Shown here one piece after another: positions 15,256-48,619 of a stretch of DNA of 64,000 nt. Under the pieces are notes generated by a model. It worked only from the letters and a program-made list of their open reading frames with translations, was not told the DNA's origin and did no database searches. Each line of letters begins with the position of its first letter. Position 1 is the stretch's first letter. The DNA comes from Apostichopus japonicus (Eukaryota; Echinodermata; Holothuroidea; Aspidochirotida; Stichopodidae). The DNA is taken from NCBI RefSeq assembly GCF_037975245.1, contig NC_092579.1:1975001-2039000 (forward strand), in the 5' to 3' direction. A program made the translations under genes and the position numbers.

Positions 15256-16620
15256 TAGAAGCTTTTGGGCCGTTTCATTATTTAAAAGCTTCCAACAGGG
15301 TACCTTTGTCTTTTAATGTCTCAATGTTTTGCAGCTGAAAGTAGATAAACAGGGTAATTTACAGTTTCTGAATCGAGTCATATTCTAAATCACCCAACAA
15401 ACATCTAAATCTTGTAGACCGGCATTATTACTAGCCATGGTCAGAATTTGATTTCGTTTTGTTGATTTGTTTCTTCGTAAAATATATACAATGATAACAA
15501 TATAAATACATATAATGTGACATATTTATGAATTAAATTTATGTTACAAAAGGAAGTTTCATTCAACACAGTAACCAAACATCAAGATGAATGTTCGCAA
15601 ATAAATAGCCTCATCACTTTAAAACTAAAATATTAATATATATAGTTACAGAAGTTTGTGATTTGATGAACCTTAATTATATCCCATATAAAATGTGTGT
15701 AAAAGTAAGTTGGCCTGACGTTTCCTTCCTGGCAAGATTTTCTTCAGAGGCTGAATTACAAGTTTAACAGAAAATACAAGGGACATAGTACAAGCAAAGA
15801 AAACAGATAGGTTTCATGAGCAGGGTGAACACAAATAGATAGATGTAAGTGGATTAGTTGACAAAGGATGGAGAGAAGAAAGAAACCAACATGGGGAATT
15901 AGTGAGGTAAGGGACAAGGAGAGGAATTAAGGGAGGAGAGTAGGGAAATCACGTAACTTTCTAAAATGTTGGAACCAGGATTTTCTCAATTATCGGCTAT
16001 ATATATATATATATATATAGAGCATGATCAATGAAGTATCTACATTTGTCTTTTGAGGCTGATATGTTAAGAATGAAACTACCCTTTCAAAACTTGTTAC
16101 AGTTCAGTAATATTTTCAATCCCGAGGCTAACTTTAGAGGCTCTACAGCGACATGTTCTAACAATTGTATGATTGTGTTCTTTACTTATCCATAAGTGAC
16201 AAGGGTGCCTTAAATATTAATACAACCATCATGAATTTTCGTATTTATATGATGTAATTAGCCTATTTTCCCTTCAATACTTTTCTTGATGTCGACTTAA
16301 ATAAAAAGTGTCCGATGGCATTTGTCTCTGTCCTCGTGTTGTTTTCGCTCACTGTCATCAACTTGTTAGTCAGTAAAATCAAAGTTGAGAAGAATATGAG
16401 GAAATGCACTTGAAATTCCACAAATTACATCATTGGCAAAACGAACACAGAATTGAATATAATGATATACCCAGGTGTGATTATTACAATGATGACAAAG
16501 TTCATTGCCCTCTGGTCGTTGATTACAGGTTTTCTCATGTAAGGAATAATCTGCGTAGCATTATAATAGTGCAAAGCAGTGGCTTGCCCAAATAGGAACA
16601 TAGCCAATTACGTCACTGTA
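15256..16620 (+). other. 3' flank of GST A, shared with copies B and C
   Basis: UTR and downstream sequence conserved in all three copies, for example TTGGAACCAGGATTTTCTCA at 15970, 36044 and 61643, and CAGTGGCTTGCCC near 16580 and 36607. It marks the right part of the duplicated unit. An AT microsatellite lies near 16001-16019. Confidence 0.75.
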
Positions 16621-16654
16621 TTTAAGATATGAGAGAACACGACTGTTATCCAAA

Positions 16655-17247
16655 TGTTAGAAGGTTTTGTTGGATGGAGGGGCCTGTTGGACGAAGGGGT
16701 ATGTTGTATGGAGAAGTATGAGAGGTACAGTATGTTGGATGGAGGGGTATGTTGGATGGAGGCCGGGTATCTTGGGTGGAGGCCAGGTATCTTGGGTGGA
16801 GGCCGGGTATGTTGGATGGAGGCCGGGTATGTTGGATGGAGGGGTATGTTGGGTAGAGGGATATATAGGTGAAGGGGTTTGTTGGATAGAGGGGTATGTT
16901 GGATGGAGGGGTTTGTTGAATGGAGTGACATGTTTGGTGGAGGGGTATGAGAGGAATGTTGGATGGAGGGATATGAGAGGTATGTTGGATGGAGGGGTAT
17001 GTTGGATGGAGGGCATGTTGGATAGAGGCGTATGTTGGATGGAGGTGTATGTTGGATGGAGGCGTATGTTGGATGGAGGGGTATGAGAGGAATGTTGGAT
17101 GGAGGAATATAAGAGGTATGTTGGATGGAGGGGTATGTTGGATAGAGGGTTATGTTGCATGAAGGGTATGTTGAATACAGGGGTACCGTATGTTGGATGG
17201 AGGGGTATGTTTGGATAGAGGGGTGTGTTGGATGGATGGGTATGTTG
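16655..17247 (+). repeat. 17-bp minisatellite (about 30 units)
   Basis: The unit is close to GGTATGTTGGATGGAGG, with variants that change TGGAT or add GAGAGG. It fills nearly 600 bases immediately after the homologous GST 3' flank of copy A and is absent from B and C. It keeps long open frames on both strands, which are by-products. Confidence 0.9.
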
Positions 17248-17726
17248 GCACATGCCCCCCCACTTTTCCTCAGGTTAAAAATGTGCCCTTTTTCTACATA
17301 AAATGAACTCTTGATCACCTTATTAGGTCAGCGATATTTCAGTAAGAGATCTAATCCTAGTTTAGAAGTATTAATGAATTTTTGTGGGTTGAACTCAAAT
17401 GCTTACTACCACAAGGCTTCTAAAATTCTGGTGAGTGCCATAATGCATTGGTATATTACATTGTGACTTTGTAATAAGCAGAAGCCATTTATAGCCTAAT
17501 ATGAATAATGAGTTTAGTTTTAATATCCCATAACCTATCCCCTCGTGTTTTGACATATTTCATTTGCTTCCATGCATGTATCGATCGCGTGTGCATGGAC
17601 TTGGTCTTTATAATGATTTCACCTCATTTTGTCTCGAAAGAAAACTTGTTTCTTGTTTCCAATGTGCACATTAGATGTTGCAGTGCTAGTATGCATTTTT
17701 TCCCTTGGGGGGGGGGGGGCAGTGGC
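17248..17726 (-). mobile_element. Inverted, diverged copy of the 20669-21309 hAT-like element
   Basis: Sequence from CACATGCCCCCCC to the G-run at 17707-17719 matches the reverse complement of about 20815-21285 at both ends (for example GTGCTAGTATGCAT-type and CACCTCATTTTGTCTC words), with a poorly alignable middle. The ends are not intact. Confidence 0.6.
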
Positions 17727-42824: not shown

Positions 42825-43053
42825 AATTATTTCGAATTTCAATGAAGGATCTGTCTACTTTTTTATCAGCGAACAACTGATGCTGAAAATCAATAGTAAC
42901 CCTGTAGGCTGTAGTGATAAACCCTAACCCCTGCCTAACCATGATGTTTATGGCGGGCCATCAGTCTCAAATCGTGGGAGATCGACTCCTACCGATTTAA
43001 ATCGACATATACCAGTTTAAGTCGACATATCATCGATTTAAATCGACATATAC

Positions 43054-43243
<190 letters not shown>

Positions 43244-43245
<2 letters not shown>

Positions 43246-43411
43246 CAGGCTATGCAAAATCTCCTTTGACGAGACAGATAAACATTCTTGCATTAATTGC
43301 AAACGTGGCAACTCTGGAACTCGCGCAAATCACATGGCATCATCTATAACCTGTCCTCAGTATGTCGATGCGCAGAACAATGTTAAACGACTGATTGCTC
43401 GTTTAAACTAG
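43244..43411 (+). CDS. LINE ORF1, C-terminal end with zinc knuckle
   Basis: The frame ends at TAG 43409-43411. It contains CINCKRGNSG, then HMASSITCPQY, a C-x2-C-x10-H-x6-C zinc-knuckle pattern of the kind found near the end of LINE ORF1 proteins, which bind the element RNA. The N-terminal part is lost at the (AAT)n border. The last two sense codons, TTA AAC, form part of a slippery heptamer (43402-43408). Confidence 0.7.
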
Positions 43412-46326
43412 ACATTAGTTTCCAGGACGGCAATACTAAGACTTATCAGCAATCACAAAGGAAATTTATATTGGAGACTGCTAATGTTCGCTCAGCTCGA
43501 AATAAAACTTCTTTAATCGTTGATCATATTATTCATTCTGGCACTGACTTATGCTGTTTAACTGAAACTTGGCTTAAGTCAAGTGATACTGTTTCCGAAG
43601 CTGCCTTAGCGCCTGAGGGTTATTATTACCTTGGAGTTCCTCGACCGCAGGATAGAATTGGTGGTGGGACTGGTTTAATTGTTCGAGCCTCAATTAAGAC
43701 CAACCTCTTGCATTCTGATGAAAAGTCGTCTTTTGAATATTCTGAATGGCTGGTTGCTATTGACAATCTCAGAGTTCGTTTAATAATAATCTACCGTCCT
43801 CCATATTCCGAAGCCCATCCGGTCACCACTTCAACTTTTTTCCGAGAATTCAGTGACCTCCTTGAAAACTGTGTGCTTTGTCCTGAAAAACTTATTCTTA
43901 CTGGCGATTTTAATATTCATGTGGATGATCACACTAGTACTGATGCGACTAAATTTACTGATATTATGAATACGTTTAGTCTCCAGCAACATGTCTCCAT
44001 TCCAACTCACGACTCCGGACACACGCTTGATTTAATCATCACACGATCCACTAACGATATCGTGTTATCATCTCCACTAGCTGCTTTAAAAGTGTCCGAT
44101 CATTGGTCAATTAGATGTTATCTTGACCTTCCTATTACCAAACATTCAACCAAAGAAATTAAATACCGGAAATATCGAAGTATTCATATTGATCAATTTT
44201 GTACTGATATTTTGCAATCCTCATTATGCACAACTGAATGGCTTGATTTAGAGAGTTTAATTGAATGCTATGATCGTACTTTAACATCTGTCCTTGATAT
44301 CCACGCACCAGTTCTGACCAGAGTAATTACCGTTAGGCCAACAGTTCCTTGGTTCTCCGATCATTTGAAAATTTTACGTTCCGCTTGTCGAAAGGCTGAA
44401 AGAGTTTTCCGCAAATCTGGTCTTGAAACTCACAGACGGGTCCATCGCTCTTTGCGGAATGAGTATTCATTCCATCTGGACTATGCTAAAAAGTCCTTTT
44501 ATACATCAACCATCCGGGACTGTGAAGGCGACACCAGGAAACTGTTTACTGTTGTCAAGTCATTGTGTAATAAAAAGCAAGTTGTTTCTTATCCGCCACA
44601 CCAAAATACTATGGAACTTGTTAATGACTTCGGACAATTTTTTATATCTAAAATTGATAAAATTAATACAAACATTGATTCCATCGCTACTGGTCCTTTT
44701 GAACCTTATGTTCAACAGCATTTCCAATCGAAGTTGACTGGGTTCAAGCCACTTTCTAACGATGAAGTTCGCACAATTATCAAATCCTCCAATACGGCTA
44801 CCTGCAATCTTGACCCAATACCCACTTGGTTACTTAGAAAGTGTCTTGACCCCCTTTTGCCTGTATTGACTACCATGATAAATCTTTCACTTAAAGATGG
44901 TAATGTTCCTGACAAATGGAAGATTGCTACCGTTACTCCATTGTTAAAGAAAGCAGGTTTGGACCCTATCTATTCTAATTATAGACCAATAAGTAATTTG
45001 AGTTATGTTTCTAAGTTAGTTGAACGAGCTGTAGTTAATGAGATTGTCTCACATTGTTCATCACATGCTCCTTTTCCTGATTGCCAATCTGCGTACAGGC
45101 AAAATCACTCTACAGAAACTGCACTTATGAAAATTCATAGTGATATATTGATGAATATGGACCAACAACAATGCACTCTTTTAATCCTGTTGGATTTGAG
45201 TGCAGCGTTCGATACTGTTAACCATGATATTCTTATGAACATATTGCGTACCCAATTTGGTATTGTTAATAATGCACAAAAATGGATTGGTAATTATCTG
45301 TCTTTCAGAAAACAGCATGTATCTATAGAAAATATCTCATCGAAAGATTTTTCTTTGAATTGTGGTGTACCACAGGGCAGCTGTCTCGGTCCTGTTCTTT
45401 TTCTTTGTTATGTTTCTCAGTTGTTTACCATTGTCTCTAAACACCTTCCTAACGCACATAGTTATGCTGATGATACACAGTTATATTTATCTTTCAATGC
45501 TGGTTCTCTGTTATCTGAGGAACGGGCTGTTCTGGCAATGCAATCACTTATATTCGAAATAAGACATTGGATGATCAGCAATAGGCTAATGATCAATGAT
45601 TCTAAGACTGAGTTTCTTTTAATTGGGACTCGCCAACAAGTTGCTAAGACTCGGGTTCAGATGATAAAAGTAGGTAACGTGGATATTAAGCCATGTGATA
45701 GTGCAAAAAATCTTGGGGTTTATCTTGACAGCAACATGTCAATGGACATTCATATTGGAAAAGTTTGCTCAAGGGCATACCATGGACTCTATAATATTCG
45801 TCAGATCAGAAAATTCCTGGATGAGGACTGTACTAAAACTCTTATTAATGCTTTTGTAATTAGTCACATCGACTACTGTAATGCACTCTTGATTGGTTTA
45901 CCTGATTATAAGCTTCGTAGAGTTCAAATGGTACTTAATGGAGCGGCTCGTTTGATTTACGCTCTTCCTAAATTTTGTCATATTACTTTTACTTTACAAT
46001 CTCTTCATTGGTTACCTGTACAGCAGCGCATTGAATTTAAACTAATCTTGCAAGTATTTAAATGTTTAAAAGGTCTTGCACCTAAGTATTTATGTGATAT
46101 GATCTCGGTGAAGTCTAGTTGTTACTCTTTGCGCTCACATTCTCGAATCACACTGCATGTTCCTTGTATCAATCATAATACATTAGGCAATAGGGCTTTT
46201 GCCTACAAAGGACCTCGGTTGTGGAATTCACTTCCGGTGGAATTGATGCGTATCGACTCCCTGACCATAGATGCTTTCAAGATAAAGTTAAAAACATATC
46301 TGTTTAAGCTTGCTTATTCTGATTGA
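43387..46326 (+). CDS. LINE ORF2: AP endonuclease plus reverse transcriptase
   Basis: Enzyme that nicks target DNA and copies the element RNA there. Counting from the TTG at 43471 (951 codons): the endonuclease starts at NVRSARNKT, with TETW (31-34), GDFNIH (145-150) and SDH (209-211); the reverse transcriptase has SNYRPIS (502-508), DLSAAFDTV (575-583), GVPQGS (632-637) and the catalytic YADD (665-668); the C-terminal RT-associated region ends with LWNSLP. All key residues are present. There is no in-frame ATG before the endonuclease; the frame opens at 43387, overlapping ORF1 by 25 bases in the -1 frame, so expression by ribosomal frameshift is likely. Stop TGA at 46324. Confidence 0.92.
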   Translation, partial: TTDCSFKLDISFQDGNTKTYQQSQRKFILETANVRSARNKTSLIVDHIIHSGTDLCCLTETWLKSSDTVSEAALAPEGYYYLGVPRPQDRIGGGTGLIVRASIKTNLLHSDEKSSFEYSEWLVAIDNLRVRLIIIYRPPYSEAHPVTTSTFFREFSDLLENCVLCPEKLILTGDFNIHVDDHTSTDATKFTDIMNTFSLQQHVSIPTHDSGHTLDLIITRSTNDIVLSSPLAALKVSDHWSIRCYLDLPITKHSTKEIKYRKYRSIHIDQFCTDILQSSLCTTEWLDLESLIECYDRTLTSVLDIHAPVLTRVITVRPTVPWFSDHLKILRSACRKAERVFRKSGLETHRRVHRSLRNEYSFHLDYAKKSFYTSTIRDCEGDTRKLFTVVKSLCNKKQVVSYPPHQNTMELVNDFGQFFISKIDKINTNIDSIATGPFEPYVQQHFQSKLTGFKPLSNDEVRTIIKSSNTATCNLDPIPTWLLRKCLDPLLPVLTTMINLSLKDGNVPDKWKIATVTPLLKKAGLDPIYSNYRPISNLSYVSKLVERAVVNEIVSHCSSHAPFPDCQSAYRQNHSTETALMKIHSDILMNMDQQQCTLLILLDLSAAFDTVNHDILMNILRTQFGIVNNAQKWIGNYLSFRKQHVSIENISSKDFSLNCGVPQGSCLGPVLFLCYVSQLFTIVSKHLPNAHSYADDTQLYLSFNAGSLLSEERAVLAMQSLIFEIRHWMISNRLMINDSKTEFLLIGTRQQVAKTRVQMIKVGNVDIKPCDSAKNLGVYLDSNMSMDIHIGKVCSRAYHGLYNIRQIRKFLDEDCTKTLINAFVISHIDYCNALLIGLPDYKLRRVQMVLNGAARLIYALPKFCHITFTLQSLHWLPVQQRIEFKLILQVFKCLKGLAPKYLCDMISVKSSCYSLRSHSRITLHVPCINHNTLGNRAFAYKGPRLWNSLPVELMRIDSLTIDAFKIKLKTYLFKLAYSD
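43402..43408 (+). promoter_or_regulatory. Candidate -1 ribosomal frameshift heptamer
   Basis: T-TTA-AAC lies in the correct phase of ORF1 (codons CGT TTA AAC TAG). A one-base backward slip continues as TTT AAA CTA GAC in the ORF2 frame. U-UUA-AAC is one of the strongest known eukaryotic slippery sites. A modest stem (TTAGT/ACTAA) can be drawn 6 bases further on; a strong pseudoknot is not obvious. Confidence 0.6.
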
Positions 46327-46410
46327 CCCGACTGGTTGGCTTTTTCCTTGTTAAGCGCTTTTGAATGTTTTGTACAAAATTAGCGCTATATAAATGCATT
46401 TACTACTATT

Positions 46411-46467
<57 letters not shown>

Positions 46468-46492
46468 AATAATACTAATAATAATAATAACT
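46411..46492. repeat. (AAT)n microsatellite, shared tail of two LINEs
   Basis: AAT units with two ACT variants. The plus-strand LINE ends into it from the left and the minus-strand LINE from the right. Confidence 0.9.
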
Positions 46493-48540
46493 AATATTTA
46501 TAATGCGCTAATTATAAACAAAGTAGTTGTCAAAAGCGCCATACATATAAATATGAATAGAAAGAAAAGCAAAAACAATAATGCAACAATGAAATATAGT
46601 TACAAATCAAACTGAAAAATGTTTGGCATAGAGGTAGGTTTTTAGTTTAGATTTGAAAAGTGATTTATTAGGTATACATTTTAAATGGTTTGGGAGGGAA
46701 TTCCACAATTTGGGACCAGAAACTGAAAAAGCATGGTTGGCATAAGTAACCCCATTGGTCCCAGGTTCAAGGAGGGTAATAAATTTTGACTGACGGGTGG
46801 CACGCTTGTATTGCTTTACTATTAGAAGTTCTGAAAGGTAGTTTGGAGATAAATGGTTATAAATACAATTGTGGATTAAAATAAGGACTTTGAAATGTAT
46901 ACGCGTTTCAATTGGAAGCCAGTGTAATGCTTTAAGAAGAGGGGTAACATGTGTAAACTTAGTTTGCTTGAAGATAAGTTTGGCAGCCCAGTTTTGAATT
47001 TTTTGCAAACGAATTACCAGATTTTTTGGAAGGCCAATGAAAATTGAATTACAGAAATCAAGGCGGGATGTAATTTATCCATAAAGAACCTCCGTTTCGA
47101 TTCACCAATGATTTTCTGGACACAATGAGTTTTGTTGTAATAAGATGTTTTGTCCTCTGCCGAGTGTGAGCGACGATACTTCTTCTCTGCCTTTCTACGT
47201 GCACGTCTTGCGACAGCTATGTCTCCATTAAACCACGGCTCCTTTTTGGGAGAAAAAGATTTCTTTATCATCGCAGGGGCATGATGATCTAATACAGCTC
47301 GCATAGCACTGTCCATTTCAGAGCAATCACAGCAACCGATGTCAATATCTGGTACTTTGGCACACAATCGTGACAGAATTGATCCAAGTCAACCTCCTTA
47401 ATTTTACGAAACGGGATAGCTTCAGATGGGCCAGGACGAATCATATAGGAATTGCATATTGACCCAGTCATGAAATAATGATCTGAAACGGGCATGTGAG
47501 TGATGACAATATCCTCAATCTTTGAGTTAAGGTTTCATGAAGTATAAACAATTGGGTCTAAAATGTGGCCAGCTTGGTGAGTAGGCTCTGTAACATATTG
47601 CGATAGACCAAACGAATCCAATATTTCTGTAAACAAGTTAACGCTGTATTCAGATTGATTGTCCAAATGAATATTAAAATCACCAAGCAAGAGAACATTT
47701 TCTATACTGGTGCATCGAAGAGACAATAACGTTTCTAGTTCATCCAAAAATTCTTTTATTGAACCAGTGGGCCGATAAATGCAAATGATATGAATGTTCT
47801 TTGGTTTTGTTCGTAAGGTAAATTCCAAAATCTCAAATTCTGAGGCCTCAAACGGTTTACTGTATTTTACTGCAGAAATGGAAGATTTATACAAAACTGC
47901 AATTCCTCCTCCATGTGTGTCTGTGAGTCTAGGGCAATTAAATATGTTATAATTTGCCGGGACAAGATCAAAAATGGACTTTCCGTTTTGTCCATCAGGC
48001 CTTAACAAAGTCTCTATTAAAACACAAAAATCCAGATGAGCATCAAGAATGGCCTCATTTATAATTATAGTCTTATTGTGAACAGAACGTACATTCCATA
48101 AACCAAATGAAATGTTATTAGAAAATTGCGTCTGCTGGGAACATTTAATAGAAGTTAAACATCTAGGGATATTTGCATATTGGGAAACATTACTTTTCTC
48201 CTTATGCAATTTACTAATAGTTTTTAGATCATGAAAACGAGTCTGAATTGTAGAAATGTTCCTTATTTTTGAATGGAATTGAATACCTCCTCGACACCCT
48301 CTGGCTGGTGCACGAATTCCAAGAACTCCAATATAAGAATAAAGCCATTGTGGGAGTTTGCTGTTTCTTGTGTACTTTCTTAGATGCAGCAATTCTCCTT
48401 TTGTGTATTTCAAACTGGGCATGCTTGGCTGCAGATTAACACAATGAGATCTTAACTCAGTCATAATGGCAAGCAGGATTAAAGCTGCTAGAAATGTTGA
48501 AGCCATTGAAAAGTCAGCTCCAACAATGAAATAATTCCTA
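46493..48540 (-). mobile_element. Second L2-like LINE, reverse transcriptase core deleted
   Basis: From 48506 down the minus strand encodes an N-terminal lead with YTKGELLHLRKY and GIRAPARGCRGG, then endonuclease (LWNVRSVHNKT, GDFNIHLDN at about 47680, a SDH motif near 47485) and a post-endonuclease linker to about 47070. It then joins directly to the RT C-terminus (LDFCNSIFIGLPKN, LHWLPIETRIHFK, LWNSLPNHL) ending near 46607. The roughly 1-1.5 kb of RT fingers and palm is absent. There are also stops between 47535 and 47367. Its 3' end AGCGCATTATAAATATTAG faces the same AAT tract as the first LINE. Confidence 0.85.
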
Positions 48541-48619
48541 AGTGTAATAGATGAAGTTGAACTAGGTTGGGTGTTAGGATAGTAGGATAAGAAAAACCTA
48601 CACCCTGCTCTTCAAATAC

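Follow-up and report, generated by a model that had tools for sequence, protein, structure and literature searches.

A putative −1 frameshift site at the ORF1/ORF2 junction of a LINE family in Apostichopus japonicus

Introduction

It has long been asked how the ORF2 protein, which is scarce, is made from bicistronic LINE RNAs. The question is raised in a particular form by a LINE copy in a 64,000-nucleotide stretch of the Apostichopus japonicus genome (NC_092579.1, positions 1,975,001 to 2,039,000, forward strand), referred to below as the window. In this copy, ORF1 ends directly after a heptamer of a type familiar from viral frameshifting, and the enzyme is encoded in the −1 frame. The slippery site of IBV is U_UUA_AAC, and the programmed −1 frameshifting of the coronavirus and retrovirus type also uses sites of the A_AAA_AAC type. 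A preliminary description of the locus proposed that ORF2 is expressed through a −1 slip at T-TTA-AAC, yielding an ORF1-ORF2 fusion at a low ratio. This reading was made to depend on the other copies of the element: the heptamer, its phase and a 25-base overlap of the two frames should recur among them, whereas copies with both frames in one phase, or with an ATG for ORF2, would speak against it. The proposal is followed here through the copies of the family, a second family with a related ORF1 and other LINE loci of the same genome.

The junction in the window copy

The last codons of ORF1 in the window are GCT-CGT-TTA-AAC-TAG, with the heptamer T_TTA_AAC placed in the zero (ORF1) frame ahead of the zero-frame stop (Table 1). 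Reading of the window confirms, in this respect, the earlier account of an ORF1 ending in CGT TTA AAC TAG with T-TTA-AAC in phase. The unbroken −1 frame, reported to run from there into an endonuclease and reverse transcriptase of 951 codons, is equally real; it is open over 979 codons (951 when counted from 43471), and Pfam places Exo_endo_phos at residues 31–239 and RVT_1 at residues 522–777. The combination of endonuclease and reverse transcriptase in ORF2 is that of the APE-type two-ORF LINEs. The absence of an upstream ATG for ORF2 is upheld as well, the first in-frame Met being residue 194, within the endonuclease. The element presumably belongs to the CR1/L2 group of LINEs, a label taken from C-terminal and 3′-end features.

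The window copy is 5′-truncated. Its similarity to other copies begins at about 43245 (anchor −142), and what remains of ORF1 is its last ~55 codons, in which a CCHC-like knuckle can be recognized by eye. The long frame at 43001–43411, which could be taken for a real ORF1, was rejected as such, since most of it is the in-frame reading of an (AAT)n microsatellite.

Table 1. Features of the LINE copy and its ORF1/ORF2 junction, in positions of the window
Feature	Position	Strand	Remarks
ORF1 3′ remnant	43245–43411	+	last ~55 codons, ends R-L-N-stop; delimited by similarity to other copies
Putative slippery heptamer T_TTA_AAC	43402–43408	+	in ORF1 phase; kept in copies; A_AAA_AAC counterpart in family 2
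ORF1 stop codon UAG	43409–43411	+	immediately 3′ of the heptamer
Overlap of ORF1 and the −1 frame	43387–43411	+	25 nt; length varies among copies
ORF2 open frame	43387–46326	+	979 codons; presumably translated from the heptamer onward; purifying selection
Apurinic-type endonuclease domain (Exo_endo_phos)	43477–44103	+	Pfam, E 7.4e-16
Reverse transcriptase domain (RVT_1)	44950–45717	+	Pfam, E 1.1e-30
Possible stem-loop past the shift site	43411–43488	+	weak; young copies can form an interrupted stem of 15 pairs, without covariation
Short 3′ UTR	46327–46480	+	motif GCGCTATATAAATGCATT, (ATT/AAT)n tail

Copies of the element in the genome

The same genome (671.6 Mb in 35 contigs) was searched with a segment of 554 bases spanning the junction, and at least 26 matches were obtained, at no fewer than 25 places, the window included. 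The junction was aligned across 25 copies, namely 20 loci of about 8 kb, four shorter search loci and the window. The copies, called family 1 below, are 83.5–100% identical to the window copy over aligned bases. The heptamer TTTAAAC is kept in 23 of the 25, while one old copy carries TTGAAAC and another has lost the junction by deletion; the codon that follows is TAG in 21 copies, TAA in one, TTG in two and deleted in one. Within 43387–43411, 24 of the 25 copies are free of indels. From the heptamer, the −1 frame runs uninterrupted to the start of the endonuclease in 16 of the 25 copies, and in the remaining nine it is decayed, deleted or shortened before that point.

The 25-base overlap fared differently and has to be given up as a conserved feature. 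Its length is fixed by an upstream −1 stop, TAA, which is present in 12 of 24 copies, the other 12 having a sense codon there; the length of the overlap is thus incidental. The variable base occupies a third codon position in ORF1, where the change is silent. Such a change is expected if only ORF1 is read at this place, and an unconserved overlap length is what would be expected if the −1 frame is left unread ahead of the heptamer.

Both frames are fully open in two of the 20 copies of about 8 kb (L039 and L041). Their ORF1 extends over 440 codons from stop to stop and 398 amino acids from the first ATG, and overlaps an ORF2 of 979 codons by 25 nt. By eye, the ORF1 protein has a Cys-rich N-terminus and CCHC-like knuckles at the C-terminus; its comparison with Pfam returned 0 families, and that with the PDB no significant match. 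The first Met of the ORF2 frame is found at residue 193–194 in five of six other copies, the sixth (L048) having a broken frame, and no usable ATG for ORF2 was met with in family 1. Since this first Met falls within the endonuclease, neither a scanning ribosome nor one that reinitiates at an AUG could yield an intact endonuclease from these copies. One copy (L043) has ORF1 and ORF2 in one phase owing to an indel inside ORF1, and a stop lies between the two.

Conservation within the family is, taken alone, unremarkable. In a sliding-window test, 41 of 543 7-mers matched the conservation of the heptamer, and 131 of 540 10-mers were as conserved as the heptamer together with the stop. A search of the genome for an exact 12-mer was discarded as evidence, with 61 matches against 197 for a reversed control pattern.

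Selection on both frames and the role of chance

The junction could be a product of chance or a relic that supports no functional frameshift, left by the decay of a fusion or by a mutation that became fixed in a single master copy. The small number of copies, many of them broken, would agree with such an origin, as would the identity of more than 97% between the window copy and 14 of the 24 others, which points to a recent common ancestor. Against it stand the existence of open copies and the selection on both frames across the older copies. For the test of selection, ten older copies (nine of them alignable to ORF1) were set against one open copy, and a substitution was counted when three or more of the ten shared it. 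In ORF1, 32 common substitutions are synonymous and 17 nonsynonymous (omega 0.147); in ORF2, read from the heptamer in the −1 frame, the numbers are 79 and 52 (omega 0.187). The four wrong-frame controls gave omega values of 1.15–2.31. Low omega in both frames, and not in the wrong ones, leads to the conclusion that ORF1 and ORF2, as judged from the substitution pattern, were both translated in the master lineage of family 1. Single young copies, with few changes each, gave an omega of 1.11 (L047) and 0.83–0.84 (L040, L043) for ORF1 and of 0.92 for ORF2 (L035). The chance or relic reading, already disfavoured on these grounds, is further opposed by a second family with the same arrangement and another heptamer, described below, and is regarded as highly improbable.

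The part of coincidence was estimated with sequences drawn at random from the codons of family 1 ORF1 itself. In-phase TTTAAAC turned up somewhere within an overlap of this kind in 0.02% of trials. The share was 2.6% for any canonical heptamer and 0.4% when the canonical heptamer had to adjoin the stop. The last figure bears on the idea that ORF2 is initiated independently and internally, by an IRES-like or non-AUG start, and that the heptamer is incidental. An unconventional, AUG-independent start has been considered for mammalian LINE ORF2, according to PMC5009743. An incidental heptamer would nevertheless have to be one of these rare coincidences, and one that recurs in the second family, and we regard internal initiation as hardly probable.

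A second family with a different heptamer

A search based on ORF1 led to a second family in the same genome (family 2), whose ORF1 is 38% identical to that of family 1 over residues 194–395 (E 2.6e-36), and whose endonuclease is 30–32% identical to that of family 1. The family 2 ORF1 ends in TCA-AAA-AAC-TAG, in which A_AAA_AAC stands in the local ORF1 frame, UAG adjoins it and ORF2 follows at −1. Ten junctions were examined (L075, L076, L078, L079, L080 and L091–L095). The exact A_AAA_AAC-UAG arrangement is present in eight of them, including two in which ORF1 is broken by an upstream indel (L078 and L094), and a longer A-run is present in the other two. The copies are damaged, with no open pair of ORF1 and ORF2 among them, and closely related to each other, for which reason they are counted as one family.

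Between the two families, all three X bases of the heptamer differ and Leu is exchanged for Lys, and the heptamer is canonical in both. On mammalian ribosomes, A_AAA_AAC and U_UUA_AAC are among the most shift-prone sites, as stated in PMC5009743. A strong slippery heptamer is retained although its bases and the encoded residues differ. This heptamer at the homologous place of family 2 is the strongest evidence for the frameshifting proposed here.

The same family gives its due weight to termination at the UAG followed by reinitiation a short distance downstream. In family 2 the restart would use an AUG, and in family 1 a near-cognate codon such as UUG, codon 29 of the open frame. In all ten family 2 junctions, an in-frame ATG is located 32 nt past the stop, at the start of the endonuclease, and therefore reinitiation could serve this family. 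In our own reading, with the codon checked, the family 2 AUG aligns with a UUG of family 1. In SART1 and L1, ORF2 depends on the translation of ORF1, and reinitiation has been proposed for them (PMC2881922, PMC5972666). However, the ORF2 frame of family 1 contains no AUG near the stop, and reinitiation accounts neither for a canonical in-phase heptamer adjoining the stop in both families nor for the choice of the −1 frame and the open linker. As a general explanation of the junction, it is considered unlikely.

Related LINE loci and ORF1 relatives

For 20 related loci that have a long ORF2 frame, several of them of the same family, the 760 nt upstream were examined. Their endonucleases are 31–45% identical to that of family 1, and some of these loci are closer to family 1 in the endonuclease (up to 45%) than family 2 is. 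Unlike family 1, each of them carries one or more in-frame ATGs ahead of the endonuclease. Neither these loci nor five further LINE loci (L097–L101) showed an upstream −1 frame of at least 60 codons ending at an in-phase heptamer. In this sample, the slippery arrangement follows the family 1-type ORF1, not the nearest ORF2.

Other in-phase heptamers are present in several of the related LINE loci. L065 contains in-phase heptamers inside a −1 frame of 61 codons, the nearest about 70 nt before the end of that frame, and has an ATG of its own. L097 is open for about 240 nt before the endonuclease, with no in-frame ATG. Within the group L097–L101, two loci resemble families already sampled, and L098 is degenerate.

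Among the candidates obtained through ORF1, seven (L077, L081, L083, L084, L086, L087 and L088) had no LINE junction in 241 nt. The heptamer is absent from a degenerate and from a damaged ORF1 relative (L082 and L085, respectively). One further locus, L096, was rejected as a relative, being non-homologous.

RNA structure downstream of the heptamer

The RNA downstream of the junction does not fold clearly better than its shuffled versions. The z score is +0.95 for 114 nt in the window, −0.6 to −1.2 for 63–100 nt in the open copy L039, and +0.5 to +1.4 in family 2. In young family 1 copies, an interrupted stem of 15 pairs can form directly past the stop; followed copy by copy into the older members of the family, its pairs are broken, with no compensation or covariation. 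A scan for H-type pseudoknots and stems found a best single stem in the window that just one of 200 shuffles equalled. For the window, no H-type pseudoknot came out of the same scan, and six of seven other copies gave rough and provisional candidates. Because of the unexceptional folding and the broken pairs of the older copies, a structural stimulator, for which the usual place is 5–9 nt downstream, is treated as unproven. If frameshifting happens, the stop codon next to the heptamer, or a distant element, may assist the shift.

Proposed mechanism

Programmed −1 ribosomal frameshifting, by which the family 1 LINE would make ORF1p and a minor ORF1p-ORF2p fusion, is the reading favored here, with a probability of roughly three in four on the evidence of sequence comparison. 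The junction has the properties of a −1 frameshift signal: a canonical heptamer in zero-frame phase before a stop, a −1 frame that leads without a stop from the heptamer to a conserved protein under selection, and a heptamer type conserved across diverged homologues, the last in two families only and with L082 and L085 lacking it. The slip at T-TTA-AAC put forward in the preliminary description is thus retained in its main part, on account of the heptamer preserved in nearly all copies, the lack of a usable ATG and the counterpart in family 2; the overlap, constant in half of the copies, is the part that did not stand.

The events can be pictured as follows. ORF2 of family 1 would have no initiator of its own, and ribosomes translating ORF1 would arrive at U_UUA_AAC with UAG as the next codon. 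A fraction of them would slip one base back with both tRNAs, UUA/AAC being re-read as UUU/AAA, and go on to translate ORF2. The pause may be aided by the adjoining stop codon rather than by RNA structure. Two products are predicted. One is ORF1p of 398 amino acids; the other is an ORF1p-ORF2p fusion, with a linker of ~25 residues between the endonuclease and the zinc-knuckle-like end of ORF1. The fusion itself would probably be the working protein.

If this is true, the ratio of ORF1 to ORF2 would be set by a canonical −1 site resembling those of viruses. The fusion would carry the RNA-binding part along with the enzyme, and such covalent linkage could explain cis-preference. The junctions of families 1 and 2 are a good test object for the production of LINE ORF2 protein. 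A wider suggestion is offered tentatively, as a possible rather than a probable one: the ORF1 tail and the slippery junction might form an inherited, "Gag-Pol-style" LINE module, in which a strong −1 heptamer is kept across families with distant ORF2 and the stop replaces a structural stimulator, and which may have moved with ORF1 between lineages.

Relation to known systems

The arrangement shares with coronavirus and retrovirus −1 frameshifting the in-phase canonical X_XXY_YYZ heptamers, the polymerase frame at −1 and the short overlap. It differs from those sites in that it belongs to a LINE, that UAG adjoins the heptamer, and that no convincing pseudoknot or hairpin was found downstream. 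As in LTR retrotransposons, a Gag-like RNA-binding ORF precedes a reverse transcriptase ORF that would be reached by a −1 shift, whereas here the element is non-LTR, the endonuclease is of the APE type and the fusion would be to the endonuclease. The gag-pol junction lies in the −1 frame in 28 of 51 animal LTR elements, in a survey cited in PMC5009743.

The proposed dependence of ORF2 on ORF1 translation is shared with SART1, a member of the R1 clade that uses UAAUG coupling, and with human L1, for which the reinitiation is unconventional. Both of these have an ATG at or past the ORF1 stop, while in family 1 the first one falls in mid-endonuclease. An ORF2 AUG overlapping or beside the ORF1 stop, as in the UAAUG of the SART1 type, was not found at these junctions; the family 2 AUG stands 32 nt downstream.

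With regard to L2/CR1 LINEs, the family 1 ORF1 looks by eye like their type IC proteins, in the Cys-rich N-terminus and the CCHC-like C-terminal knuckles, and its ORF2 likewise joins APE and RT. Type IC comprises a PHD, an RRM and three CCHC motifs and occurs in the subgroups L2_2 and CR1_3, according to the main text of PMC4120745, which in its account of L2/CR1 ORF1 types mentions frameshift 0 times. Among the open-access papers listed in a literature search, as judged by title, opening of the abstract and selected passages, none reports an L2 or CR1 LINE whose ORF1 and ORF2 meet at a canonical −1 heptamer. Among non-LTR elements, the Drosophila telomeric element HeT-A needs frameshifting for the expression of gag, as reported in PMC5009743. 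The HeT-A shift serves gag in an element with no reverse transcriptase of its own, whereas the shift proposed here would take place at the junction of ORF1 and ORF2.

Flanking sequences and a possible target preference

The longer copies of the LINE family found in the window (family 1) are flanked by TA-dinucleotide repeats. In the copies L036, L039, L041, L042 and L047, a (TA)n stretch lies immediately 5′ of the element start. On the 3′ side, a short (ATT)n tail is followed again by (AT)n in L036, L038, L043 and L047, and the (AT)n following this tail is short in L041. The presence of TA repeats on both sides suggests a microsatellite target preference of the family 1 LINE, unless the 5′ repeat is a part of the element itself.

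Related loci in the genome

The LINE locus L070, which is related to family 1 but different from it, carries a 2A-like StopGo motif, GDVHPNPGP, in an N-terminal extension of the ORF2 frame. PMC5972666 reports 2A sequences from non-LTR elements in sea urchin. At another LINE locus, L068, a 139-codon -1 frame and the ORF2 frame overlap by 22 nt, and the overlap contains an ORF2 ATG; judged by this arrangement of frames, L068 is a possible candidate for stop-start coupling.

For two adjacent degenerate ORF1 relatives (58-64% identical), L077 and L081, no LINE junction was found in the 241-nt downstream stretches read. One endonuclease match (contig C22) lies within an open frame of 2514 codons, much exceeding the other listed LINE ORF2 frames in length.

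Other features of the window

The second LINE of the window is broken, belongs to another family and is oriented tail to tail with the family 1 LINE. The repetitive stretch is Pro/Ile/Gln-rich, with PSNIPLHPTY-like units.

Coordinates of window features and of related loci in the searched assembly (G000; C, contig)
Feature	Position	Strand
Second LINE	window 46500-48611	minus
Frames of second LINE	window 46607-47074, 47014-47388, 47535-48611	minus	
Repetitive stretch, three overlapping open frames	window 16608-17327	minus
L070	C3:16312567-16313367		
L068	C8:35683601-35684401		
L077 and L081	G000:C12:13649-13670 kb		
Endonuclease match	G000:C22:26353635-26354249
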